A stretch of 64,000 bases of DNA from Paracoccus sp. IB05 (GTDB lineage: Bacteria; Pseudomonadota; Alphaproteobacteria; Rhodobacterales; Rhodobacteraceae): positions 1 to 64,000 of the forward strand of contig NZ_JAEFCF010000023.1 of the NCBI RefSeq assembly GCF_016405985.1, given 5' to 3'. The notes under the pieces are model-generated. The model had not been told where the DNA came from, did not search any database, and worked only from the letters and a program-made list of their open reading frames with translations. The position numbers were made by a program, and so were the translations under genes. Positions 8,995 through 20,251 of the stretch are shown here, one piece after another (within the stretch, counting starts at the first letter, position 1; each line of letters starts with the position of its first letter).

Positions 8995-9816
8995 TCAGAC
9001 CAGCTCGACATTCGCTCCGCCGTCGCGCATGCGCTGAAGGCTGGCCTCCGGCACGTTTCCGGCCAGCAGGATCAGGTCGAATTCGGTCAGATCAGCCACA
9101 TAATTCAGCGCGGTGAAGCCGAATTTCGACGCATCCGCCAGCAGGAATTTCCGCCGCGCGCTTTTCATCATCGCCCGTTTCGCGCGCATCACCAGCTCGT
9201 CGGGGGTAAAGATCGCCATGCCCTGGATCGTCGTTGTCGACAGGATCGCGACATCGACATGATAACGCCCGATGGCCTCGTCGCAGGCGGCGCCGAAATA
9301 GCCGTCATAGCCCTGATGATAGCGCCCGCCGGTTGAGATCAGGTCGATATCAGGCACCCCCCGCAGCCGGGCGAGCACCGGCACCGCATTGGTAACGACG
9401 GTGAGCGGCGTCACCTCGGGCAGGAAATCGCAGATATGAAACACGGTCGAGCTGTCATCGGCCATGATCGCATTGCCGGGCTCCAGCCGCGAGACGGCGG
9501 CACGTGCGAGGCGGCGTTTCTCATCGACCTGGTTGCGGGTGCGATATTTATAGCTGCTTTCGAACAGGAGCGATTTTTCCGCCGAAACCGCGCCGCGCAC
9601 CCGGCGCACCAACCCCTCGCGCTCCAGCTCGTAAAGGTCGCGATGCACGGTCATGAGGCTGACCCGGAGCTGTTCTGCGAGGTCGCGAATCAGCGTGGTG
9701 GAGCCCGACATCAGGATCTGGAGGATCCTTTCACGCCGGCGTTCCGCTTTGGAGAGGGATTGCACGGGGTCGGAAATGTTGGATTCCATCAGATGTCCGG
9801 GGGTTGATCTTAACAT
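8995..9816 (-). CDS. DeoR-family transcriptional regulator, likely repressor of the adjacent catabolic operon
   Basis: This 273-residue DeoR/GlpR-type regulator has an N-terminal helix-turn-helix (about 25-80: RRERILQILMSGSTTLIRDL, then VSLMTVHRDLYELEREGLV) and a C-terminal DeoRC effector domain resembling ribose-5-phosphate isomerase, with a phosphosugar-binding-type DDSSTV loop. Such proteins usually repress sugar or polyol operons until a phosphorylated intermediate binds. It is divergent from the SBP-permease-ATPase-DhaKL-LsrF-aldolase operon, with a 301-bp shared control region holding several palindromes. The ATG at 9816 has GAGGTGA just before it, which is unusually close; the next ATG at 9789 has no ribosome site. 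Confidence 0.9.
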   Translation of the reverse strand: MLRSTPGHLMESNISDPVQSLSKAERRRERILQILMSGSTTLIRDLAEQLRVSLMTVHRDLYELEREGLVRRVRGAVSAEKSLLFESSYKYRTRNQVDEKRRLARAAVSRLEPGNAIMADDSSTVFHICDFLPEVTPLTVVTNAVPVLARLRGVPDIDLISTGGRYHQGYDGYFGAACDEAIGRYHVDVAILSTTTIQGMAIFTPDELVMRAKRAMMKSARRKFLLADASKFGFTALNYVADLTEFDLILLAGNVPEASLQRMRDGGANVELV

Positions 9817-10117
9817 TCACCTCTTGATGCGCGAGACGGAATGATATGTCCAGCCTCTCGCTTCGATGAAAGAATCGCGACGCTGCTTTGCAGAAATCTG
9901 CACTAACAGGCGATTTATACGCAGATTTTGGGGCGTATCCTCTGAGAAACTCGCTGCGGCTGCGAAGGGGGTTTTGATAGTAACACCGTAAAAATTTCAT
10001 GAATCGTGATGTGTTTCACATTTATCTTGCTGAAAATTGCAACCAGGCATTAGCGTTGTCTCTACGGGAAACAGGCGGAGGAGGAAGCCGCCGGGCCCGG
10101 TCAGGGAGGAGAGAGAG
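9817..10117. promoter_or_regulatory. Divergent control region of DeoR regulator and catabolic operon
   Basis: This 301-bp AT-richer spacer has no gene. Three perfect inverted repeats are visible: TGCAGA-AA-TCTGCA at 9889-9902, ATACGC-N10-GCGTAT at 9917-9938, and ATGTG-TTT-CACAT at 10009-10021. The second repeat's left arm overlaps a partial copy of the first (CGCAGATTTT). These are plausible operators for the DeoR-family protein and possibly a second regulator. I could not fix a promoter with confidence; TTGCTG near 10029 is one -35 candidate for the rightward operon. The long 5' leader of the SBP gene ends in GGGAGGA before the ATG at 10118. Confidence 0.6.
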
Positions 10118-11524
10118 ATGAAGTATCGCAGCACGCTTCTGGCGTCTGCCGCGGTGGCTGGCATGTTATGCGGCACTGCCGCCCGTGCCGACACCACGCT
10201 GACGTTTGTCTGGCATGCCGGCACCTGTGCCGATGCCATCATGGATATTGCGAAAGACTACCCCGACAAAACTGTGAAAGTCGTGCCGGCTCTGGTGCCT
10301 TACGGGCCGGAATGGCACAATAAGATCGCGTCCGAATTCGCGATCCAGGGCGATGCGTTTGACTTTGCCATGTGGGACAGCCAGTCGACCGCTGAATTTG
10401 CGGGCGGCGGCCATGCCGTCAAGATCAATGATATTTTTGACCAGTCAACCTATCTGAAAGCCGATATTTTCCCGGCCTCGTCGCTGTCGCAATATGGCGA
10501 ATACCCGGATGGATCGGGCCAGTTCTACGGGCTTCCTGTGAACCAGGACGCTTACGGGCTGATGTATCGCAAGGATCTCTTCGAGAATCCCGGGGAACAG
10601 GCGGCCTTCAAGGCGAAATACAACCGCGACCTGAAAGTGCCGGAAACCTATCAGGAGGCGAAAGAGGTCGCCGAATTCTTCACCCGTCCCGATCAGGGTC
10701 TTTACGGCTGGGGTCAGATGGGCGGGCGCGATTACGATTTCGCGACCACGGCCTCGAACAGCTATCTGTGGTCCTTTGGCGGCGAGCTTTACAATCCCGC
10801 GACCATGGAGGTGGAGGGCTATCTGAACTCGCCCGCTTCGATTGATGGCGTCCAGGCCTATGTCGATATGTTCAAATACGGGCCGCCCGGGTCTGGCAAC
10901 TGGGGCTTTGACGAGGTGAATGCCTCGTTCCAGCAGGGCCAGCTCGCCATGGCGATGCAGTGGTTCTACTTCAACGGCTCGAACGCCGATCCAAAGGTCT
11001 CTACCGTGGCGGAACAGACCGGTTTCGGCATCCTGCCCGGCGCGGTTGGTCGTGACGGGTTGTTCCGCCGCCAGTTCTCGGTCGGTGGCCAGGGCATGGG
11101 GATCAACAAATACTCGAAAAAACTCCCCGAGCTGGTGAAGTTCATGGAGTGGTACTTTCAGCCCGAGCAGCAGACCCGCTATGCCGCCGTCTGCCAGACG
11201 GGCCTGAAAGCCGTGTTGGAAAGCCCGGAATGGCAGGGCTTGAACAGCTATAACAGGCAATTCTCGACCGCACTGCAATATCTGAACGATTACTGGCACT
11301 TGCCGGAATATCCGGTGATGCTGGATATCCTGCAGGAAGAGGTCTCGAACGCGATTTCGGGCTCCAAGACCGTCGAGCAGGCGCTGACCGATGCCGCCAC
11401 GCGCCATGAACGCACGCTGGAGCGCGCCGGCTACAAGATCGACCGCAAAGGCGGCGCGCCGGAGGTGCCGGATACGGTGATCTCGCCGGCAGGTCAGGCG
11501 GAAGTGACCCCGGTCAATCAGTGA
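10118..11524 (+). CDS. ABC transporter solute-binding protein, carbohydrate (CUT1) type
   Basis: This 468-residue periplasmic binding protein has a Sec signal peptide MKYRSTLLASAAVAGMLCG with likely cleavage after TAARA (about residue 24). The mature protein has the family-1 extracellular solute-binding pattern (early strand TLTFVWHAG; ASEFAIQGDAFDFAMWDSQS; a C-terminal segment with VEQALTDAATRHERTLERAG). GGGAGGA precedes the ATG. It is the first gene of a long operon with two permeases, two ATPases and catabolic enzymes. Its aromatic-rich surface suits a polyhydroxylated ligand, but the ligand cannot be read from sequence. A short hairpin separates it from the permease genes. Confidence 0.92.
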   Translation: MKYRSTLLASAAVAGMLCGTAARADTTLTFVWHAGTCADAIMDIAKDYPDKTVKVVPALVPYGPEWHNKIASEFAIQGDAFDFAMWDSQSTAEFAGGGHAVKINDIFDQSTYLKADIFPASSLSQYGEYPDGSGQFYGLPVNQDAYGLMYRKDLFENPGEQAAFKAKYNRDLKVPETYQEAKEVAEFFTRPDQGLYGWGQMGGRDYDFATTASNSYLWSFGGELYNPATMEVEGYLNSPASIDGVQAYVDMFKYGPPGSGNWGFDEVNASFQQGQLAMAMQWFYFNGSNADPKVSTVAEQTGFGILPGAVGRDGLFRRQFSVGGQGMGINKYSKKLPELVKFMEWYFQPEQQTRYAAVCQTGLKAVLESPEWQGLNSYNRQFSTALQYLNDYWHLPEYPVMLDILQEEVSNAISGSKTVEQALTDAATRHERTLERAGYKIDRKGGAPEVPDTVISPAGQAEVTPVNQ

Positions 11525-11531
11525 TCCTGCC

Positions 11532-11554
11532 GGGGGCTGCCTCTGGTGGCCCCC
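11532..11554 (+). promoter_or_regulatory. Intergenic hairpin after the binding-protein gene
   Basis: GGGGGC (11532-11537) pairs with GCCCCC (11549-11554). There is no T-run. Hairpins at this place, between a binding-protein gene and its permease genes, commonly protect the upstream mRNA end and give more binding protein than permease; that role is inferred here. Confidence 0.45.
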
Positions 11555-11579
11555 TCAACTCTGCCAGTCCGGGGGAAAC

Positions 11580-12449
11580 ATGTCCGGTTCACACACCGGA
11601 TCAGCCGCGATCACCCGCTGGGTCATGATCGCACTTCTGATCCTCTACACGATCTACAATCTTGGCCCGATCCTCTGGCTGGTGATTTCCTCGCTGAAAA
11701 GCCGCGCGGACCTGTTTTCGATGCCGCCGAAACTGGTCTTCACGCCGGATTTCTCGGGCTATCAGAGCGTCTTTGGTGTGGGCGCCGCGAAAGACAGCGC
11801 GGCCTCGATCGGCGTCTTCCGATCCCTCGTGACCAGCGTGCTGGTCTCGACCATCGGCACCTCGGTCGCGGTGCTGCTGGGGACGCTGGCGGGCTATGTC
11901 TGTTCGCGCTTTGATTTTCGCGGCAAGGGCGATTTCATGTTCTTCGTCCTGTCGACGCGGATGCTGCCGCCGGTCGCGGTGCTCGTGTTCTACCACATGA
12001 TGTTCGCGCAGCTGGGGCTGGCGGACACGCGGATCGGCCTGATCCTGATCGCGGTTTTCATCAATGTCGGCCTTGCGACCTGGATCATGAAGGGCTTTTT
12101 CGACGGTGTCCCGCGCGAAGTGGAACAGATCGCCATCGTGAACGGCTATTCGCGCCTATACGCGTTTCGCAAGCTGGTGCTGCCGATGGTCAAGGGGGGA
12201 ATCGCCGCAACCGCCGGATTTTGCTTCATCTTCTCGTGGAACGAATATGCTTTCGCCTCGATCCTGACCACGACAAAGGCGCAGACTTTGCCGGTCAAGA
12301 TTTCGACCGCCTCTGGCGCGACCGGCATTGAATGGACGCAGATCTGCGCCGCCGGGGTGGTGCTGATCGTACCGGTGCTGATCTTCTTCTGGCTGATCCG
12401 CAAACATCTGCTGATGGGCATGACCTTTGGCGTGCTGGGGAGGAAATGA
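11580..12449 (+). CDS. Carbohydrate ABC transporter permease, MalG type
   Basis: This 289-residue inner-membrane protein has six predicted membrane helices. The cytoplasmic EAA loop reads EVEQIAIVNGYSRLYAFRKL and continues VLPMVKGG, the site that docks the ATPases. The N-terminal TIYNLGPILWLVISSLKS is typical of MalG-type CUT1 permeases. GGGGGAA precedes the ATG at 11580. Its last codons overlap the start of the second permease gene. Unusually, the MalG-like gene precedes the MalF-like one. Confidence 0.92.
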   Translation: MSGSHTGSAAITRWVMIALLILYTIYNLGPILWLVISSLKSRADLFSMPPKLVFTPDFSGYQSVFGVGAAKDSAASIGVFRSLVTSVLVSTIGTSVAVLLGTLAGYVCSRFDFRGKGDFMFFVLSTRMLPPVAVLVFYHMMFAQLGLADTRIGLILIAVFINVGLATWIMKGFFDGVPREVEQIAIVNGYSRLYAFRKLVLPMVKGGIAATAGFCFIFSWNEYAFASILTTTKAQTLPVKISTASGATGIEWTQICAAGVVLIVPVLIFFWLIRKHLLMGMTFGVLGRK

Positions 12450-13342
12450 TGGATCAGCCCCTGCAAAAGAGATCGACCGGGCGGCTGATGATCCTCGGGT
12501 TCCTGTCGCCGACCATTCTGCTCCTGTTGTTCATGGTCGCCTATCCGATCATCAGTCTGGTCTATTACAGCTTCCATAACTTCTCGGCGATGCGGCCGGC
12601 GGATGGGATGAGCTGGGCGGGCCTTGGGAATTACGAATACCTGCTGACGGATAGTGCTATCTGGCAGCGCTTTGTGTTCACCGGGAAATTCGTGTTCATC
12701 TGCGTGACGATGCAGATGATCCTCGGGATTTTCGTCGGCTATCAGCTGCAAAAGACTTTCAGGGGCCGCGATTTCCTGTTCACCGCGCTGATGCTGCCGA
12801 TGATGCTTTCACCGGTCGTGGCGGGGTTCCTGTGGCGCTATATGCTGAATTCGGAATGGGGGGTGGTGAATTTCCTTCTCTCCGGCATTGGCCTGCCGAA
12901 GATCGAATGGCTGAGCCAGGCGACACCAGCCTTATGGGCCGCTGCGGTGGTCGACACCTGGATGTGGACGCCCTTTATCGCGCTGCTCGCAACCGCCGCC
13001 TTTCGCGGCATCCCAGAGACGATCTATGAGGCCGCCGAGGTCGATGGCGCCAGCCCGGCCTATGTCTTCTTCCGCGTCACCCTGCCGATGTCGGCGCCGG
13101 TGCTGTTCATCGCGCTGATCCTGCGGCTGATCGACTGTTTCAAACAATATGACCTTTTTGTCGCCTTCACCGGGGGCGGGCCGGGATCCTCGACCGAAAC
13201 CGTCTCCTTCGCCGTCGCCAAAACCGCCTTTTCCTACTTCTACACCGGCGAGGCGTCGGCGCTGGCGGTGATCCTTCTGTGCATCATTATGGGGCTTGCG
13301 ATGATCCTGGTGCGCCACCTCTCACAAATGGGGGAACGCTGA
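12449..13342 (+). CDS. Carbohydrate ABC transporter permease, MalF type
   Basis: This 297-residue permease has six membrane helices beginning RLMILGFLSPTILLLLFMVA. Its EAA loop reads IYEAAEVDGASPAYVFFRVT, then LPMSAP. Two adjacent ATGs occur (12446 and 12449). I chose the second because GGGGAGG then has 5 bases of spacing; the first would leave only 2. The start overlaps the stop of the preceding permease gene, and its stop overlaps the next gene (TGATG), implying translational coupling. It should form the heterodimeric channel with the MalG-type permease. Confidence 0.92.
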   Translation: MDQPLQKRSTGRLMILGFLSPTILLLLFMVAYPIISLVYYSFHNFSAMRPADGMSWAGLGNYEYLLTDSAIWQRFVFTGKFVFICVTMQMILGIFVGYQLQKTFRGRDFLFTALMLPMMLSPVVAGFLWRYMLNSEWGVVNFLLSGIGLPKIEWLSQATPALWAAAVVDTWMWTPFIALLATAAFRGIPETIYEAAEVDGASPAYVFFRVTLPMSAPVLFIALILRLIDCFKQYDLFVAFTGGGPGSSTETVSFAVAKTAFSYFYTGEASALAVILLCIIMGLAMILVRHLSQMGER

Positions 13343-14406
13343 TGGCGCGGATTGATCTGAAGGATCTGACCATTCGCTTTGGCGGGTTTACAGCGGTCGA
13401 TAACGTCAATCTGACGGTGAATGACGGCGAGTTCGCGGTCTATCTCGGTCCGTCCGGCTGCGGCAAGACCACCACCCTGCGCGCGATTGCCGGGCTGGAA
13501 CAGGCGACATCGGGCGATATTCTCTTCGACGGCAAACGGGTCAATGACCTGAAACCCTCGGAGAGAAACATCGCCATGGTGTTCCAGTTCGTCTCGCTCT
13601 ACCCGAACCTTTCGATTGCGGAAAACATCATCTTCCCGCTGAAAGCGCGGGGTGTGGCGCGGGCCGAGATCGCGCGGAAACTCGACTGGGTGACGGGGGT
13701 GTTCAGGCTCGGCGATGATCTGAAACGCCGCCCCGGCAGCCTGCCGCCCGGCGCGCGGCAAAAAGTGGCGCTGGCGCGGGCGGTGATCCGCGACCCCGCC
13801 GTTTTGCTGCTCGATGAACCGCTTTCTGCGATTGATGAGCAATTCCGCGAGGAGATGCGGTGGGAGCTCGGCCATTTGCAGCGCGAGCTGGGGGTGACGA
13901 CGATCTATGTCACCCATGACCAGCGCGAGGCGATGTCACTGGCGGACCGTATCGTATTGATGAACCATTCGAAAATCGTCCAGGTGGCCGAGCCGGACCG
14001 GATCTTTTTTCAGCCGGCCTCTATCTTTGCCGGCCAGTTCATCGGCTCGCCTTCGATGAATCTGATCGACCTTATCCCGGTTGCAGGGGGGCTGCGTCTG
14101 GGTGACAGCCCGGTGGTGATCAGCCAGTCCGAATTGCCGTCGGGCCTGACGGCAAAAGGGCCGCTGAAACTCGGCATCCGCCCGCGCGATTTACGGCTCG
14201 TCTCGGGCGAGGGCCATGCCCTGGCGGTCGAAGACACTTTCTCGGTCGGGCGCGAGAGGTTTTTCACCTTCTCCATCGGGGATCAGATCCTGCAAGGCAC
14301 CGATCACCGGACCGCTCCCGGCGACGGCGCCGTCACCCTGGCCCGCGAGGGCATGATGTTCTTCGATGCCGCAACCGGGTTGCGGATCACGGAGGTGGCG
14401 GCATGA
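13342..14406 (+). CDS. ABC transporter ATPase 1, with degenerate signature motif
   Basis: This 354-residue ATPase of the MalK/UgpC type has a nucleotide-binding domain (1-235) and a C-terminal OB-fold (TOBE-like) regulatory domain. Walker A (GPSGCGKTT), the Q-loop (VFQFVSLYPN), Walker B (VLLLDEPLSAID) and the H-loop (YVTHD) are intact. The ABC signature, normally LSGGQ, reads LPPGARQ, so the Ser and first Gly that contact ATP across the dimer are lost. The partner ATPase downstream has the complementary defect in its Q-loop. The start overlaps the stop of the preceding permease. Glycerol and polyol importers with two distinct ATPase genes (GlpS/GlpT type) are the closest known arrangement. 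Confidence 0.92.
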   Translation: MARIDLKDLTIRFGGFTAVDNVNLTVNDGEFAVYLGPSGCGKTTTLRAIAGLEQATSGDILFDGKRVNDLKPSERNIAMVFQFVSLYPNLSIAENIIFPLKARGVARAEIARKLDWVTGVFRLGDDLKRRPGSLPPGARQKVALARAVIRDPAVLLLDEPLSAIDEQFREEMRWELGHLQRELGVTTIYVTHDQREAMSLADRIVLMNHSKIVQVAEPDRIFFQPASIFAGQFIGSPSMNLIDLIPVAGGLRLGDSPVVISQSELPSGLTAKGPLKLGIRPRDLRLVSGEGHALAVEDTFSVGRERFFTFSIGDQILQGTDHRTAPGDGAVTLAREGMMFFDAATGLRITEVAA

Positions 14407-15485
14407 GCGCGATGCTGGAACTGAAAGGTGTTTCAAAAGCTTACAAGGGCAAGCAGGCCCTGCGCGGCATTGACCTGACGGTGGAGGATGGCGAGATCCT
14501 TGCGCTGCTTGGCCCGACGGGGGCAGGGAAAAGCTCGACCCTTCTGACCAGTGCAGGGCTTGTCGAGCCGGATCGCGGCACGGTTCACCTCGCGGGTCGC
14601 GATGTGACCGAGGCCGAGGCGTCATCGCGCGATGTTGCGGTGGTGTTTGAAGGCTTCAACCTGCTGCCGGTGCTGAATGTGCACGACAATATCGCCTTCG
14701 CGCTGCGCTCGCCGAAATATCGCGAGCCCGAGGCCGAGATCGCCATCCGCGTGTCCCGCACAGCCGAGCTTTTGCGGATCGGGCATCTCCTCGACCGCGA
14801 CACCGGCACGCTGTCGGGGGGCGAGAAACAGCGCGTCTCGATCGCCCGCGCGCTGGTGCGGCGGCCAAAGCTCTATCTGCTGGACGAGCCGCTTTCCGCG
14901 CTGGATCTGAAACTGCGCGAGGGGCTCCGGGCGGAACTGCGTCAGATCCACCGCGAACATGGCACGACCATGCTATATGCCACGCATGATTATCACGGCG
15001 CCATTGCCATCGCCGACCGGATTGCCATCGTCAATGACGGTCGCGTGCTGCAGACCGGCCGTATCGCTGACATCTATGCCCGCCCCGCCGACGCCTTTGT
15101 CGGGCGGCTGATTGGCAGCCCCTCGATGGCGTTTTTCGAGGCAGACCTGACGGGTGACGGCATCATCGTGCCAGGCTGGGAGGGCGCGCTCGACCCTGGC
15201 CGTTTCGGGCGGATCACGGCAAAGGGACCGGTCAGTTTGGGGATCTGGCCCGAGGATATAAGCCTTGGTCAGGGCCATGAGGGGCGCATCTACGCGCTCG
15301 ACAATCGCGGCTATGAGGCGGCGGTGCAGGTCGAGACCCGTGCGGGCATGTTTCGCAAAGTGCTTGAAGGCGGGCCGGTACCGCTTCAGGGCGAGGCGAT
15401 CCGCTTTTGCCCCAGGCCCGGCGCGGGGTTTCTGTTTGACCGCGCGACAGGGGCGCTCGTCTCGCATCAGGAGGGAGGCGCATGA
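14403..15485 (+). CDS. ABC transporter ATPase 2, with altered Q-loop
   Basis: This 360-residue MalK/UgpC-type ATPase has Walker A (GPTGAGKSS), an intact signature (LSGGEKQRVSIARA), Walker B (LYLLDEPLSALD) and the H-loop (YATHD). The Q-loop position, usually FQ, reads FEGFNLLP, so the glutamine that senses Mg-ATP and contacts the permease is Glu. The C-terminal regulatory domain spans about 240-360. The ATG overlaps the stop of ATPase 1 by 4 bases, and its own stop overlaps the next small gene. It is expected to pair with ATPase 1 to form one normal and one degenerate ATP site. Confidence 0.92.
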   Translation: MSAMLELKGVSKAYKGKQALRGIDLTVEDGEILALLGPTGAGKSSTLLTSAGLVEPDRGTVHLAGRDVTEAEASSRDVAVVFEGFNLLPVLNVHDNIAFALRSPKYREPEAEIAIRVSRTAELLRIGHLLDRDTGTLSGGEKQRVSIARALVRRPKLYLLDEPLSALDLKLREGLRAELRQIHREHGTTMLYATHDYHGAIAIADRIAIVNDGRVLQTGRIADIYARPADAFVGRLIGSPSMAFFEADLTGDGIIVPGWEGALDPGRFGRITAKGPVSLGIWPEDISLGQGHEGRIYALDNRGYEAAVQVETRAGMFRKVLEGGPVPLQGEAIRFCPRPGAGFLFDRATGALVSHQEGGA

Positions 15486-15679
15486 TCATGTTTTACCGTC
15501 TTGCAAGCGGGCTGATCATCCTTGGCTTTCTGATGCTCTGCCAGCCCTTCACCCATGATCTTTTCGTCATCGGATTTCCCGTGCTGCTGATCGGAGTGAT
15601 CCTGTTTATGATCCTCGACCATATCCCGGCACGCCAGATCAGGGAAAACCGGGCCGCAGCGGAGGACAGAAATGGCTAA
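15482..15679 (+). CDS. Small two-helix membrane protein of the ABC/kinase operon
   Basis: This 65-residue protein consists of two hydrophobic helices (about 5-20 and 26-45) and a short charged tail (HIPARQIRENRAAAEDRNG). It overlaps ATPase 2 by 4 bases at the start and dhaK by 8 bases at the end, so it is clearly translated within the operon. I do not recognise a named family. Small membrane proteins occur at comparable places in glycerol-type ABC operons, where their role is unclear; an accessory role in the transporter is the natural guess. Confidence 0.75.
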   Translation: MIMFYRLASGLIILGFLMLCQPFTHDLFVIGFPVLLIGVILFMILDHIPARQIRENRAAAEDRNG

Positions 15680-16688
15680 ACCGATCAAGAAAATCCTGAA
15701 CGACCCGCGCCGCGCGGTGCATGAGATGCTCGACGGGCTGGTGCTGGCCTCGGACGGGCGCACGCGGCGATTGCCGGGCGTCGATGCCATCGTGAAGGCG
15801 GAAATCCCCGAAGGCAAAGTCGCGCTGCTGATCGGTGGCGGATCTGGGCATGAGCCGCTGTTCCACGGCTTTATCGGCGAGAATATGGGGGACGGCGCCG
15901 CCTGCGGCCAGTTCTTCGCCGCGCCCGCGCCGCATATCGTTTATGAGGCCGCAAAGGCGGTGCATCGCGGCAAAGGCGTCTTGTTCCTTTACGGCAACTA
16001 TGCCGGTGACAATATGAATTTCGACATCGGGGCCGAGATGCTCGCCGATGAGGGGATCGAGGTCCGCACCCTGCGGGTCACCGATGACGTGGCCGCAGCC
16101 CCGCCGGAACGGATGCATGACCGGCGCGGTATCGCGGGCGATCTGTTGATGATCCGCGTGGCCGGCGCGGCTGCGGCGCATCTGGGCAGCCTTGATGAGG
16201 TTGAGCGCGTGGCGAAAAAGGCGATGGCGGGCCTCAGGTCGATGGGGGTTGCGGTGCTTGCCGGCTCGATCCCTGAAACCGGCAAGCTGACCTTCGAGCT
16301 TGCCGATGATGAGATCGAAATCGGCATGGGCGCGCATGGCGAGGCGGGGATCTCGCGGCAGAAGCTCGGGACTGCCGATGAGATCACCGATCAGATGATG
16401 GAAAAGATCCTCGCCGATCTGCCGTTCCGGAAAGGCGACGAGGTCGCGCTGCTGATCAACAATCTCGGCGCCACGACGATGATGGAGATGCTGGTGGTGA
16501 ACCGCCGGATCCGCCAGATCCTCGCGGATCGCGGCATCACGGTGCATCGGTCAGATGTTGGCACCTGGGTCACCTCGCAGGAAATGGCGGGGCTGTCGAT
16601 CTCGCTGATGCGGCTGGACGCGGAGCTGAAGCATTATCTCGACATGCCCAGCCGGTCGGTTGGCTATTCCAGCCTGGAGGCGAAATGA
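15672..16688 (+). CDS. DhaK-type ketose kinase, substrate-binding subunit
   Basis: This 338-residue protein matches the DhaK fold that covalently binds short-chain ketoses. The motif GGGSGHEPLFHGF (55-67) is present, and the histidine that forms the hemiaminal with the substrate is H222 in GMGAHGEAG. The acidic substrate contact lies in GNYAGDNMNFD (about D113). It is followed by a separate DhaL gene and no DhaM, so phosphorylation probably uses ATP. Known relatives act on dihydroxyacetone or on D/L-erythrulose; the actual ketose here is not known. Its ATG overlaps the upstream small gene by 8 bases. Confidence 0.88.
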   Translation: MAKPIKKILNDPRRAVHEMLDGLVLASDGRTRRLPGVDAIVKAEIPEGKVALLIGGGSGHEPLFHGFIGENMGDGAACGQFFAAPAPHIVYEAAKAVHRGKGVLFLYGNYAGDNMNFDIGAEMLADEGIEVRTLRVTDDVAAAPPERMHDRRGIAGDLLMIRVAGAAAAHLGSLDEVERVAKKAMAGLRSMGVAVLAGSIPETGKLTFELADDEIEIGMGAHGEAGISRQKLGTADEITDQMMEKILADLPFRKGDEVALLINNLGATTMMEMLVVNRRIRQILADRGITVHRSDVGTWVTSQEMAGLSISLMRLDAELKHYLDMPSRSVGYSSLEAK

Positions 16689-17305
16689 TGCGGGTTGATG
16701 AGGCAGGCGCGGCATTGATGCTGGCAGCGGTGGCACGGGCGGTGCTCGACCGGGTGGACGATCTGACCGATGCCGATCTGGCGATTGGGGACGGGGATCA
16801 CGGCATCGGCATGCGGCGCGGGTTCGAGGCGGTCGAGATGGTGATGGAGGCGCCGCCGCCGGGCATTGATGGCGTGTTCCGCGCGGCGGGCATGGCGATC
16901 ATGTCGAATACCGGCGGGGCGGCGGGGGCGGTGTTCGGCTCGGTCTTTACCGCCGGGGCTGCGGCTTTCGCGATGCAGGAAGAGATCACGGCTGAGGGGT
17001 TCACGGCGTTTCTGGCCGCAGCCGAGGGCGCGGTGCAGCGCCGGGGCGGCGTGGCGGAAGGGGCGAAGACGATGCTCGACGCGCTGGCGCCGGCCGCGCG
17101 GGCGGCGGCAGGCGCCGATGACCTGCAGGCGGCGACTGCGGCGGCGGCCAAGGCGGCGCTCGCGGGTGTCGAGGCGACCAAAGCGATGATCGCGACGACT
17201 GGCAAGGCGCGATCCCTCGGGGAGCGATCCATCGGGCATCCCGATCCGGGGGCGATTTCGATGAGCATCATCCTCGGCGCGATGCGGGATTACGTGGCCG
17301 GCTGA
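16685..17305 (+). CDS. DhaL-type kinase subunit, nucleotide-binding
   Basis: This protein of about 205 residues is the all-helical nucleotide-binding partner of DhaK. The Mg-ADP ligands are visible in DADLAIGDGDHGIGM. If translation starts at the second ATG (16688), these aspartates are numbered 30, 35 and 37, as in E. coli DhaL. Other family signatures are SNTGGAAGAVFG and GHPDPGAISMS. GGAGG precedes the first ATG by 4 bases and the second by 7, so 16688 may be the real start. The gene overlaps the dhaK stop. With DhaK it should transfer a phosphoryl group to the imported or oxidised ketose. Confidence 0.88.
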   Translation: MMRVDEAGAALMLAAVARAVLDRVDDLTDADLAIGDGDHGIGMRRGFEAVEMVMEAPPPGIDGVFRAAGMAIMSNTGGAAGAVFGSVFTAGAAAFAMQEEITAEGFTAFLAAAEGAVQRRGGVAEGAKTMLDALAPAARAAAGADDLQAATAAAAKAALAGVEATKAMIATTGKARSLGERSIGHPDPGAISMSIILGAMRDYVAG

Positions 17306-17326
17306 GGCGGCCGTTAGGAGGCAGTT

Positions 17327-18214
17327 ATGGCAGATCTTGACGATATCAAAGACGGTAAGGACTGGGGCGCTGATCGCCCCGCCGATACCAGCCGGTTCTT
17401 CCTGAAAGGCGCGGCGCATCATGACTGGGGGATGAAAGCGCGGCTGTCGCAGATCTTCCGTCCCGAGACCGGTCGCACGGTGATGCTGGCCTTTGATCAC
17501 GGCTATTTCCAGGGGCCGACGACCGGGCTGGAACGGATCGATCTGACCATCGCGCCGCTGGCGCCCCATGCCGATGTGCTGATGTGCACGCGGGGCGGCC
17601 TGCGCAGCTCAATCCCGCCGGAATCGCGCCGCCCGATTGTGCTGCGCTGTTCGGCGGGGAACTCGATCCTGACCGAATTGTCGAATGAGCTGGTGGGGGT
17701 CGAGATCGATGATGCGATCCGGCTGGGCGCCAGCGCCATGGCGGCGCAGATCTATATTGGCGCAGAATATGAGCATAAATCCATCGCCAATGTGGTGAAG
17801 CTGATCGATACAGGCACAAGATACGGCATCCCGACCATGGCGGTGACCGGGGTTGGCACGGATATGGTGCGCGATGCGCGTTACTTTGGCCTCGCCACAA
17901 GGATCGCGGCTGAGATCGGGGCGCAATTCGTGAAAAGCTATTACACCGATGAGGGGTTCGAGCGGATCACCCTTGGCTGCCCGGTGCCCATCGTGATTGC
18001 GGGCGGCAAGAAGCTGCCCGAGGCGGAGGCTCTGGAAATGGCGTATCGCGCCATCGACCAGGGCGCGGCAGGGGTGGATATGGGGCGCAACGTGTTCCAG
18101 TCCTCAGATCCGGTCGCGATGCTCAGGGCGCTGGCGGGCGTGGTGCATGAGGGCCTGAGCGGCGCTGCGGGCTATGAGATGTTCCGCGATCTGGCACAGC
18201 GCCAAACGGCCTGA
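17327..18214 (+). CDS. lsrF: LsrF-like class I aldolase/thiolase
   Basis: This 295-residue TIM-barrel protein is strikingly close to E. coli LsrF, sharing from memory the N-terminus [12 protein letters not shown] and the stretch [20 protein letters not shown]. The active-site lysine is K203 in [16 protein letters not shown], the same position as in E. coli LsrF. LsrF transfers the acetyl group of 3-hydroxy-2,4-pentadione-5-phosphate to CoA, giving DHAP and acetyl-CoA, at the end of autoinducer-2 degradation. AGGAGG stands 5 bases before the ATG. No lsrK, lsrG, lsrB or lsrR is nearby. Here the phosphorylated substrate would come from the DhaKL pair directly upstream, so it may be AI-2-like or another branched or linear dione phosphate. 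Confidence 0.88.
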
Positions 18215-18304
18215 CACCTGACCGCCTGAAGTTCAACCAAATGCAGTTTAATCACGGGCGATCCTGTCGCCCGCTGGCCGGGTCATGCCCGGAGGAGGTT
18301 TGTG

Positions 18305-20251
18305 ATGCGAAATCTCTGGGATGAGACGGCGGCTTCCGGCCTCACGGGGCTGGCACTCAGGGCTTATTCCTCGTGGCTGATCGGGCAGGATCCGGGTCTC
18401 GTTCTGCATGGCGGCGGCAATACTTCGTGGAAAAGCGAGGCGCGCGATCTTTACGGCGCGATGCTGCCGGCGATCTGGGTCAAGGCCGCCGGGTCCGATC
18501 TGGGGCATATGGGCGAGGAAGGTTTTACCGGGCTGGAACTGGCGCCGCTGCTGGCGCTGGCAGAGCTGGAAACGCTTTCCGACAGCGCGATGGTGGCGGC
18601 GGTGAAACGGGCGCGGCTTGACCCGGATGCGGCACCGGCCCCGATCGAGGCGCTGGTTCATGCGCTGATCCCGGCGGCGTTTGTCGACCATTGCCATGCC
18701 GATGCGGTGCTGACCCTGTCAAATGCGGGCGGGCGGGCGCTGCTGCAGGCGGTCTGCGGCGCGCGGCTGTTGATTCTGCCCTATGTGAAACCGGGCTTTG
18801 AGCTCGCGCGCCAGATCCGCCAGGCGCTGGCCGGGGCGGGAAGAGCGGGGTTTGACGCGATCCTCCTCGAACATCACGGCGTCTTCACCTGGGGCGAGAC
18901 GGCGCGGCAAAGCTATGACCGGATGATCAAGATCTGTGGCGCGGCTGAGGCCTGGATCGCGGCAAATCTCGCGCCCCTGACCGAGGCGCGACCCGAGCCT
19001 GATCCGTTGGGCGTCGCGCGGCTGCGCGGCCTTGTGTCGCGCGCGGCGGGGCGGGCGCTGATCGCGCGCCCGGCAGGGGCGGTGCCGCCCGGCGAGGTCG
19101 CGACCCTGGCCGAGCGCGCGCGTCACGGCACCCTGAGCCCGGACCATGTGATCCATCTGAAGCCCTTCCCGATGCTTGTCGGGTCTGACCCTGCGGCCGG
19201 CCTCGCGCAATTTTCTGAGGCCTATCGCAGCTATGCGGCCCGGGCCGGGAACCCGGATCTGATCCCGCTGCCCGACATGCCGCATTGGGCGCTGAACCCC
19301 GACGGATCGGCGTTCAGCTTTGGCCCGACCCTCGCGCGCGCGCGGGTGGTGGCGGAGATGGCGCAGGCCAATCTCGTGGCGCTGCGCCGCGCGGCGCAGA
19401 TCGGGGCCTGGCAGGGGCTGACCGAAGCGCAGCTTCGCGACCTGGAATATTGGGAGCCGGAGCAGGCCAGGCTGAAACGCCAGACCGTACCCCCGGTGCT
19501 GGCTGGGCGGGTTGCGGTGGTCAGCGGGGCGGCGGCCGGGATCGGTCGCGCCACTGCCGAAGCGCTGGCGGCGGCGGGTGCGGTGGTGATCGGGCTGGAT
19601 GTTGACCCTTCGGTGCGCGCGCATATGAACCGCGACGGCTATGACAGCATCACTGCCGATCTCACCGATGAGAGGGCGGTGGCCGCGGCGCTGGATCAGG
19701 TGGTCTGCGACTATGGCGGGCTTGATATCCTTGTCTCGAATGTCGGCATCTTCCGTGCCGGTGCGCCGGTCGAGACCCTGGGGGATCAGGTCTGGGACGA
19801 TACACTGGCGGTCAATCTGACATCGCACAGGAAGCTTTTGAAACAGGCGATCCCCTTTCTGCGCCAGGGTGTCGATCCGGCTGTCGTTTTCATCGGATCG
19901 CGCAATGTCGCAGCGCCGGGGCCGGGGGCGGCGGCCTATTCGGTCTCGAAAGCGGGGCTGACGCAGCTGATGCGGGTCGCGGCGCTGGAGCTTGCGCCTG
20001 AAGGGATCCGCGTCAATGCGATCCATCCGGATGCGGTGTTTGACACGCGCCTCTGGACGCCGGAGGCGCTGGAGACCTCGGCGCGGCGCTATGGGCTGAC
20101 GGTGGAGGCGTATAAATCGCGCAATCTGATGCGGGCTGAAGTGCGCTCGGCGGATGTGGCCCGCGCGGTGCTGGCACTGGTCGATGGCAGCTTTTCCCGC
20201 ACCACCGGCGCCCAGATCCCTGTCGATGGCGGCAATGATCGCGTGATCTGA
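18305..20251 (+). CDS. Bifunctional class II aldolase / short-chain dehydrogenase
   Basis: This 648-residue fusion has an N-terminal class II (fuculose/rhamnulose-phosphate type) aldolase domain with HGGGNTSWK (35-43), a likely catalytic glutamate E115, and zinc histidines around H129/H131 (VDHCHAD) and H190/H191 (LEHHGVFTWG). The C-terminal SDR domain has SGAAAGIG (407-414), S532, and the catalytic Y545 and K549 in YSVSK. Homologues include the RhaD-type rhamnulose-1-phosphate aldolase/alcohol dehydrogenase of alphaproteobacteria, which is slightly longer. GGAGGAGG favours the ATG at 18305 over the GTG at 18302. In this operon it could oxidise the imported polyol and cleave a phosphorylated ketose, but the substrate is unknown. 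Confidence 0.9.
   Translation: MRNLWDETAASGLTGLALRAYSSWLIGQDPGLVLHGGGNTSWKSEARDLYGAMLPAIWVKAAGSDLGHMGEEGFTGLELAPLLALAELETLSDSAMVAAVKRARLDPDAAPAPIEALVHALIPAAFVDHCHADAVLTLSNAGGRALLQAVCGARLLILPYVKPGFELARQIRQALAGAGRAGFDAILLEHHGVFTWGETARQSYDRMIKICGAAEAWIAANLAPLTEARPEPDPLGVARLRGLVSRAAGRALIARPAGAVPPGEVATLAERARHGTLSPDHVIHLKPFPMLVGSDPAAGLAQFSEAYRSYAARAGNPDLIPLPDMPHWALNPDGSAFSFGPTLARARVVAEMAQANLVALRRAAQIGAWQGLTEAQLRDLEYWEPEQARLKRQTVPPVLAGRVAVVSGAAAGIGRATAEALAAAGAVVIGLDVDPSVRAHMNRDGYDSITADLTDERAVAAALDQVVCDYGGLDILVSNVGIFRAGAPVETLGDQVWDDTLAVNLTSHRKLLKQAIPFLRQGVDPAVVFIGSRNVAAPGPGAAAYSVSKAGLTQLMRVAALELAPEGIRVNAIHPDAVFDTRLWTPEALETSARRYGLTVEAYKSRNLMRAEVRSADVARAVLALVDGSFSRTTGAQIPVDGGNDRVI

Follow-up and report, generated by a model that had tools for sequence, protein, structure and literature searches.

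The window analysed here, a stretch of 64,000 nucleotides from Paracoccus sp. IB05 (contig NZ_JAEFCF010000023.1, positions 1 to 64,000), contains an operon in which LsrF, an enzyme associated with the degradation of autoinducer-2 (AI-2), is encoded together with a DhaKL-type kinase, a fusion of a class II aldolase with a short-chain dehydrogenase (SDR) and an ATP-binding cassette (ABC) importer. The most fitting description of the operon is that of a variant catabolic pathway terminated by LsrF, for which a concrete substrate can be predicted, and an earlier interpretation of the same DNA (the original prediction) appears partly right. The favoured reading, to which an even chance is given, is that a short sugar is imported and degraded by a pathway under DeoR control, of which the LsrF reaction would be the last step. 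From the operon, the protein families, the catalytic residues, the module replacement seen in related loci and the smallest forms of the system, all of which the sequence provides, we infer the reactions, their order and the substrate.

Identity of LsrF

LsrF cleaves the phosphorylated product of LsrG into dihydroxyacetone phosphate (DHAP) and acetyl-coenzyme A (acetyl-CoA), as stated in excerpts of PMC7828210 and PMC8016206. The protein of the operon is 66.6% identical to E. coli LsrF, is the same over a 12-residue N-terminal stretch and passes the NCBIfam equivalog NF006081 (Table 1). The Cypionkella LsrF homologue is 93% identical to it. In a tree of 87 rows it is placed inside and not outside the LsrF family, and two DhnA-type aldolase rows split off at 100/100.

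Across all 85 LsrF rows, including that of the operon, 62 of the 291 E. coli LsrF positions are invariant, among them D57, H58, R107, K203, Y205, G226, G227, D251, M252, G253 and R254. The catalytic and phosphate-binding residues of the E. coli enzyme, including the Schiff-base Lys203, are named in excerpts of PMC2728841. The operon protein keeps Lys203, Asp57, His58, Arg254 and Gly226/227/253 (invariant in 85/85 rows). The retention of K203 and of near-identical N-terminal motifs claimed in the original prediction is confirmed, and the other catalytic and phosphate-binding residues are likewise kept. Twenty-two of the 62 invariant positions (Y205, K228, D251 and M252 among them) are not shared by any of the four DhnA relatives, gaps in the DhnA rows being the sole cause for two of these positions. 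Judged by tree and residues, the protein is a genuine LsrF.

Sister operons and module replacement

The comparison covers the best 80 of 576 confirmed loci, all fetched through LsrF, the presence of which is therefore a matter of selection. The gene order from DeoR to LsrF is repeated in seven of the 80 (L004, L005, L009, L011, L012, L013 and L081) and in an eighth further locus from the same genus (L104). As it recurs in eight further loci, this order is not due to chance. L011 and L013, which branch off first within the DhaKL clade of the LsrF tree, end in a stand-alone SDR and have no aldolase match, the L011 contig stopping 194 bases past the SDR.

Four other loci of the 80, from Shinella (L006, L007 and L010) and Martelella (L008), retain the divergent DeoR gene (66-69% identity), LsrF (89-90%) and the aldolase/SDR, and carry an Rbs-type ABC importer, an FGGY kinase and a GlpD-like dehydrogenase where DhaKL and its importer would stand. 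Because their LsrF is nested within the DhaKL clade (starred branches 100/87 and 98/85), the FGGY/GlpD module is read as an in-place replacement. This swap supports the assignment of DhaKL as the kinase that feeds LsrF and renders plausible the proposal, made in the original prediction, that DhaKL stands in for LsrK. The best solved relatives of the Shinella FGGY kinase are LsrK and XylB, and the protein scores under both NCBIfam cut-offs.

A second group with FGGY and GlpD comprises Celeribacter L030, Tropicimonas L043, two Sagittula loci (L092 and L109) and a relative (L110). L030 and L043 hold an RbsBAC importer, a SorC regulator, GlpD, FGGY and LsrF, with no aldolase or SDR match within the fetched stretch. 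By gene content, the smallest form of both versions is one kinase, one dehydrogenase and LsrF. The aldolase domain, which the original prediction had made part of its scheme, looks dispensable, since L013, and L011 up to its contig end, have a stand-alone SDR and no aldolase match, and L030 and L043 lack a match to either domain in the stretch fetched. The GlpD of the Shinella type is 42% identical to that of the Celeribacter group and closer (47%) to a Marivivens GlpD whose cluster is without LsrF; pairwise identity, the sole basis of this comparison, hints that the two GlpD types were recruited separately.

The DeoR protein has matches of 49-70% identity in 11 sister loci of the DhaKL and FGGY types, and of 93% in L104. 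Its retention across the replacement suggests that the effector is an internal intermediate common to both operon types. An operator search returned no 14-mer of the operon's own intergenic region (up to 2 mismatches) in more than two of the 11 other regions. A shorter motif, picked from this same intergenic region, has two exact copies there, which is no evidence, and it was rejected. The sequence TGAATTTAACATTTT is common to L104 (DhaKL-type) and to L006, L008 and L010 (FGGY-type), between DeoR and the first operon gene. Spotted by eye in the output for a motif chosen post hoc, it is a possible operator.

At E<=1e-30, 6 of the 385 genomes searched in the class hold an LsrF match; at E<=1e-60 the order gives 6 of 390 and the phylum 52 of 398, the source genome being counted each time. 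The solute-binding protein (SBP) of the importer occurs in 2 of the 12 genomes of the genus, again counting the source genome, and the operon is an accessory island.

Other LsrF contexts were observed. A minus-strand gene for a second aldolase, DhnA/ADH-synthase-like and 27-29% identical to LsrF, lies upstream of DeoR in L004 (812-1612), L009 (644-1429) and L013 (659-1444), with similar matches in L005 and L081, which gives five sister operons in all. No such aldolase adjoins the Paracoccus operon, and the genome has one match (29%) besides LsrF. In L018, a marine Rhodospirillaceae bin, and similarly in L026 and L028, LsrF adjoins a 770-amino-acid molybdopterin oxidoreductase, and neither a kinase nor an SDR is matched there.

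DhaKL kinase

DhaK keeps His56, Asp109 and His218 (E. coli numbering), which we take to be the covalent His and the catalytic His/Asp. The Dak1 and Dak2 families, the covalent His and the catalytic pair are all present, as expected for a DhaKL kinase. LsrF-linked DhaK proteins have Ala-Ala at positions 79-80, where the E. coli and Pasteurella proteins have Thr-Ser, in an alignment that contains one over-long row (own42a). This change hints at a substrate of DhaKL other than dihydroxyacetone, without being specific.

Two more DhaK genes of the genome (5.3 Mb, 108 contigs) lie on a different contig, in a cluster (L116, G000:C42:55000-74000) that also holds SorC-type regulator matches, an aldolase/SDR fusion and an Rbs-type importer with a weak LsrB match; it has no LsrF match. 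The closest DhaK relatives among plasmid records sit in other ketose clusters (49-51% identical), and the Pasteurella DhaK, with no LsrF nearby, is 50.6% identical to that of the operon. On plasmids of Parabacteroides and Aureibacter, DhaK, DhaL and LsrF adjoin each other, and DhaK is 35% identical to the operon protein. The DhaK-DhaL-LsrF triples on Bacteroidota plasmids span L094:6291-9812 and L118:6224-14087, with a gene for a Mal s 1-like beta-propeller protein nearby in both. The idea that the DhaKL-LsrF link arose independently in Bacteroidota and in Alphaproteobacteria was considered and set aside: the best trees separate the two groups, and a single clade is not rejected for DhaK in the approximately unbiased (AU) test (p 0.21). 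For LsrF the same test gives p 0.108 with the Shinella rows and p 3.3e-05 (rejected) without them.

Proposed pathway and substrate

DhaKL kinases convert HOCH2-CO-R to POCH2-CO-R, and an FGGY kinase together with GlpD converts HOCH2-CHOH-R to the same POCH2-CO-R. A ketose 1-phosphate is, on balance, the preferred candidate for an intermediate shared by both versions. In the proposed sequence the sugar would be imported by the ABC importer and phosphorylated by DhaKL at its HOCH2-CO- end, yielding the ketose 1-phosphate. Subsequently, the SDR, which in this operon is joined to the class II aldolase domain, would oxidise the carbinol two carbons from the ketone to give a phosphorylated 2,4-diketone. 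LsrF would then pass the acyl half to coenzyme A through the Lys203 Schiff base and release DHAP. This last step, an LsrF-type thiolysis of a phospho-diketone, is considered probable.

If the specificity of LsrF is unchanged, the diketone would be 3-hydroxy-2,4-pentanedione 5-phosphate (P-HPD), as in AI-2 breakdown, and the acyl-CoA would be acetyl-CoA. In that case, the order of the two enzymes would set the substrate: kinase before SDR would call for a 5-deoxy-pentulose, and SDR before kinase for a 1-deoxy-pentulose such as 1-deoxy-D-xylulose. That the group R is a methyl (a deoxypentose), and not another group, is judged at slightly below even. The sister operons would reach the same intermediates through the FGGY kinase and the GlpD-like dehydrogenase. 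In the Celeribacter form, 1-deoxy-xylulose would be phosphorylated by the kinase to 1-deoxy-xylulose 5-phosphate and oxidised at C4 by GlpD to P-HPD, on which LsrF would act. For the Shinella form, in which SDR and GlpD occur together, the starting compound would be the alditol. Excerpts of PMC3424233 report that XylB phosphorylates 1-deoxy-xylulose and that purified pyruvate dehydrogenase produces this compound from pyruvate and glyceraldehyde.

A wider proposal, which we hold only tentatively and with some doubt, is that LsrF thiolysis may be a general catabolic route that takes deoxypentuloses and alditols (1-deoxy-xylulose, 5-deoxy-pentuloses) to DHAP and acetyl-CoA, with SDR plus DhaKL or FGGY plus GlpD as interchangeable front ends; the AI-2 degradation encoded by lsr would be a specialised branch and not the origin. 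Such a route would provide a fate for the 1-deoxyketose by-products of central metabolism. Should the deduced chemistry hold, it would represent a sugar pathway to DHAP and acetyl-CoA without an aldehyde intermediate, by which deoxyketose by-products could become carbon sources. Among the papers listed in searches of the open-licence PMC library, none has an LsrF-DhaKL or LsrF-GlpD pathway in its title or abstract.

Importer

The SBP is 75-86% identical in five aligned sister operons. It is about 32% identical to rhizobial SBPs without an assigned ligand, two of which belong to operons with two ATPases, and its best sequence match in the PDB is an SBP labelled sorbitol (E 1.6e-16). The transporter assigned in the original prediction is indeed an ABC importer, and these matches point only weakly to the polyol label given to it. 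An AlphaFold model of the SBP from a 7-row alignment was too poor (mean predicted local distance difference test score 40.7) and was not used.

Alternative explanations

Several observations weigh against the favoured reading. The comparison loci cannot reveal related operons without LsrF, because they were retrieved through it. The aldolase domain keeps its metal ligands and could act on the ketose 1-phosphate directly. Shinella, with both SDR and GlpD, would need a substrate one step more reduced than that of the Paracoccus operon, or one of the two enzymes would act otherwise. In L092, L109 and L110 a class II aldolase is present but an SDR match is not. The Ala-Ala change of DhaK is also present in the paralog of the same genome, from a cluster without an LsrF match, and the AU tests do not establish two origins of the DhaKL-LsrF link. 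Finally, in 15 of 20 fetched loci from other Pseudomonadota families (L151-L170, out of 41 hits at 55-60% identity), the gene that comes after LsrF on the same strand encodes an aldolase/SDR from a different subfamily, and neither DhaK nor FGGY has a match in the stretch retrieved. A kinase nearby is thus not universal, and LsrF with the aldolase/SDR may be an independent unit. Twelve of these 20 loci also hold a relative of a large protein of L167 with helicase-associated PF03457 repeats.

Two alternatives are regarded as unlikely, to the same degree. The first keeps the logic of the pathway with another R group: an ordinary pentulose, pentitol or tetrose would be degraded, and LsrF would yield glycolyl-CoA (or other acyl-CoA) and DHAP. 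The kinase and dehydrogenase steps leave R free, and in the PDB the importer SBPs find their best sequence matches among proteins that bind sugars generally (one labelled sorbitol, one labelled arabinose and one unnamed sugar binder). This is countered by LsrF itself, as the known active-site residues are the same in the AI-2 and DhaKL types. Between the AI-2 group (20 rows) and the clade of DhaKL and Shinella proteins (13 rows), just five of the 291 positions discriminate (13, 204, 216, 256 and 269, at least 85% in each).

In the second, the ketose would be degraded by DhaKL and the aldolase domain, on the model of the 5-deoxyribose (DrdK/I/A) or rhamnose routes. The domain could itself cleave the ketose 1-phosphate into DHAP and an aldehyde, which the SDR would oxidise, and LsrF would be redundant, an accessory aldolase or a scavenger. 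The fusion keeps the aldolase Glu-His-His-His and the YxxxK of the SDR; these four aldolase residues are present in all 31 LsrF-linked rows of the domain (two of the rows being duplicates of each other), whereas in the Paracoccus rhamnose fusion the Glu is replaced by Asp. RhaD fusions have the same layout, and aldolases of the FucA/RhaD/DrdA type split ketose 1-phosphates (excerpts of PMC6079011). Against this route, no aldolase match is found in L013, in L011 before the contig end, or in the fetched stretch of L030 and L043.

A variant of AI-2 uptake and degradation, with DhaKL replacing LsrK, is very unlikely. The LsrF is genuine and related Rhodobacter genomes (L014, L015 and L019) have lsr operons of the AI-2 type, but the importer belongs to another class and the companion genes are missing or weakly matched. 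No match to E. coli LsrG was found in the entire genome at E<=0.01, and the best matches to E. coli LsrB and LsrK are 26% and 30% identical. In five alphaproteobacterial lsr operons used as a yardstick (L014, L015, L019, L032 and L035) the same queries give 45-48% for LsrG, 62-65% for LsrB and 51-54% for LsrK. The genome therefore does not have the set of LsrK, LsrG and LsrB that defines lsr AI-2 uptake and degradation. The absence of AI-2 genes claimed in the original prediction stands for LsrG and, through these weak matches, for LsrB and LsrK; the whole-genome searches did not include LsrR. Moreover, DhaK-type kinases require a ketone beside the phosphorylated carbon (HOCH2-CO-), and 4,5-dihydroxy-2,3-pentanedione (DPD) has none. 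AI-2 as the substrate is accordingly improbable; the original prediction had named an AI-2-like compound as one possibility.

Public records annotate LsrF through the AI-2 reaction, yet the protein occurs in several contexts without other AI-2 genes nearby, for which reason AI-2 degradation calls from LsrF alone are unsafe. In Rhodobacter sp. TJ_12 a second LsrF copy (L016:10001-10867), almost identical to the copy in the lsr operon of that strain (L015), lies near thyX, away from the other lsr genes.

More remote still is a pathway for a branched, apulose-like ketose with DhaKL as an apulose-type kinase: a Salipiger DhaK relative (49%) has a TIM-barrel protein and a split transketolase as neighbours, in a cluster that presumably resembles apiose clusters and on which the literature search yielded nothing, but the operon has no isomerase or transketolase, and we know of no precedent for LsrF chemistry on a branched substrate. 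Nothing in the evidence indicates the branched sugar that the original prediction had also considered, though the nearest plasmid DhaK relatives, placed in other ketose clusters, leave it a slight probability.

Gene layout of the operon

The components listed in the original prediction (DeoR, SBP, two permeases, two ATPases, small membrane protein, DhaK, DhaL, LsrF and aldolase/SDR) are all present in the order it stated, and neighbouring genes overlap or are separated by short gaps (Table 1). Pfam or NCBIfam back the family of every gene except that of the small membrane protein, for which a Pfam search gave no match. By tblastn, seven of the eight other DhaKL-type loci match this protein, the exception being L013.

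Table 1. Genes of the operon and the divergent repressor, with positions in the window.
Feature	Position	Strand	Support
DeoR/GlpR-family repressor, divergent to the operon	8995..9816	-	PF00455 (DeoRC) 4.7e-39; PF08220
ABC importer SBP	10118..11524	+	PF01547 4.7e-34 (SBP_bac_1-type)
ABC importer permease 1	11580..12449	+	PF00528
ABC importer permease 2	12446..13342	+	PF00528; overlaps permease 1
ABC importer ATPase 1	13342..14406	+	PF00005
ABC importer ATPase 2	14403..15485	+	PF00005; overlaps ATPase 1
65-amino-acid membrane protein, role without assignment	15482..15679	+	translation
DhaK, ketose-binding subunit of Dha-type kinase	15672..16688	+	PF02733 (Dak1) 1.8e-110
DhaL, ATP-binding subunit (Dak2)	16685..17305	+	TIGR02365 161.6 bits, cut-off 138.3
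LsrF, phospho-diketone thiolase (by family)	17327..18214	+	NF006081 478.5 bits, cut-off 297
Class II aldolase/SDR fusion	18302..20251	+	PF00596, PF13561

Comparison with known systems

The DhaKL clusters of Salipiger and Pasteurella share with the operon a DhaK that is 49-51% identical. They contain a TIM-barrel protein and transketolase, or PdxA/RpiB-type enzymes, and have no LsrF in the fetched stretch. The Paracoccus rhamnose operon, which has a RhaD aldolase/SDR fusion, is similar in its DeoR regulator, sugar ABC importer and fusion protein. On the other hand, the two fusions are only about 33-34% identical, and that of the operon scores 383 bits on TIGR02632 (RhaD aldolase/SDR), under the cut-off of 568. 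In addition, the operon has DhaKL in place of the FGGY kinase, lacks RhaI/RhaM and has LsrF added.

The 5-deoxyribose salvage pathway or DHAP shunt (DrdK-DrdI-DrdA), as described in excerpts of PMC6079011, resembles the proposed pathway in a possible 5-deoxypentulose 1-phosphate, in DHAP as a product and in the class II aldolase domain. According to the same excerpts, the shunt ends in acetaldehyde by aldol cleavage, whereas the end proposed here would be oxidation and thiolysis to acetyl-CoA; the operon is also without genes of the MtnK/MtnA type. The E. coli lsr operon (LsrKRACDBFG) differs in the class of its importer; in the Paracoccus operon DhaKL is found instead of LsrK, an SDR is present and the LsrG isomerase is not, and the regulator is of the DeoR type and not LsrR. 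What the two operons have in common is an LsrF ortholog with its catalytic residues and a kinase that would feed it.

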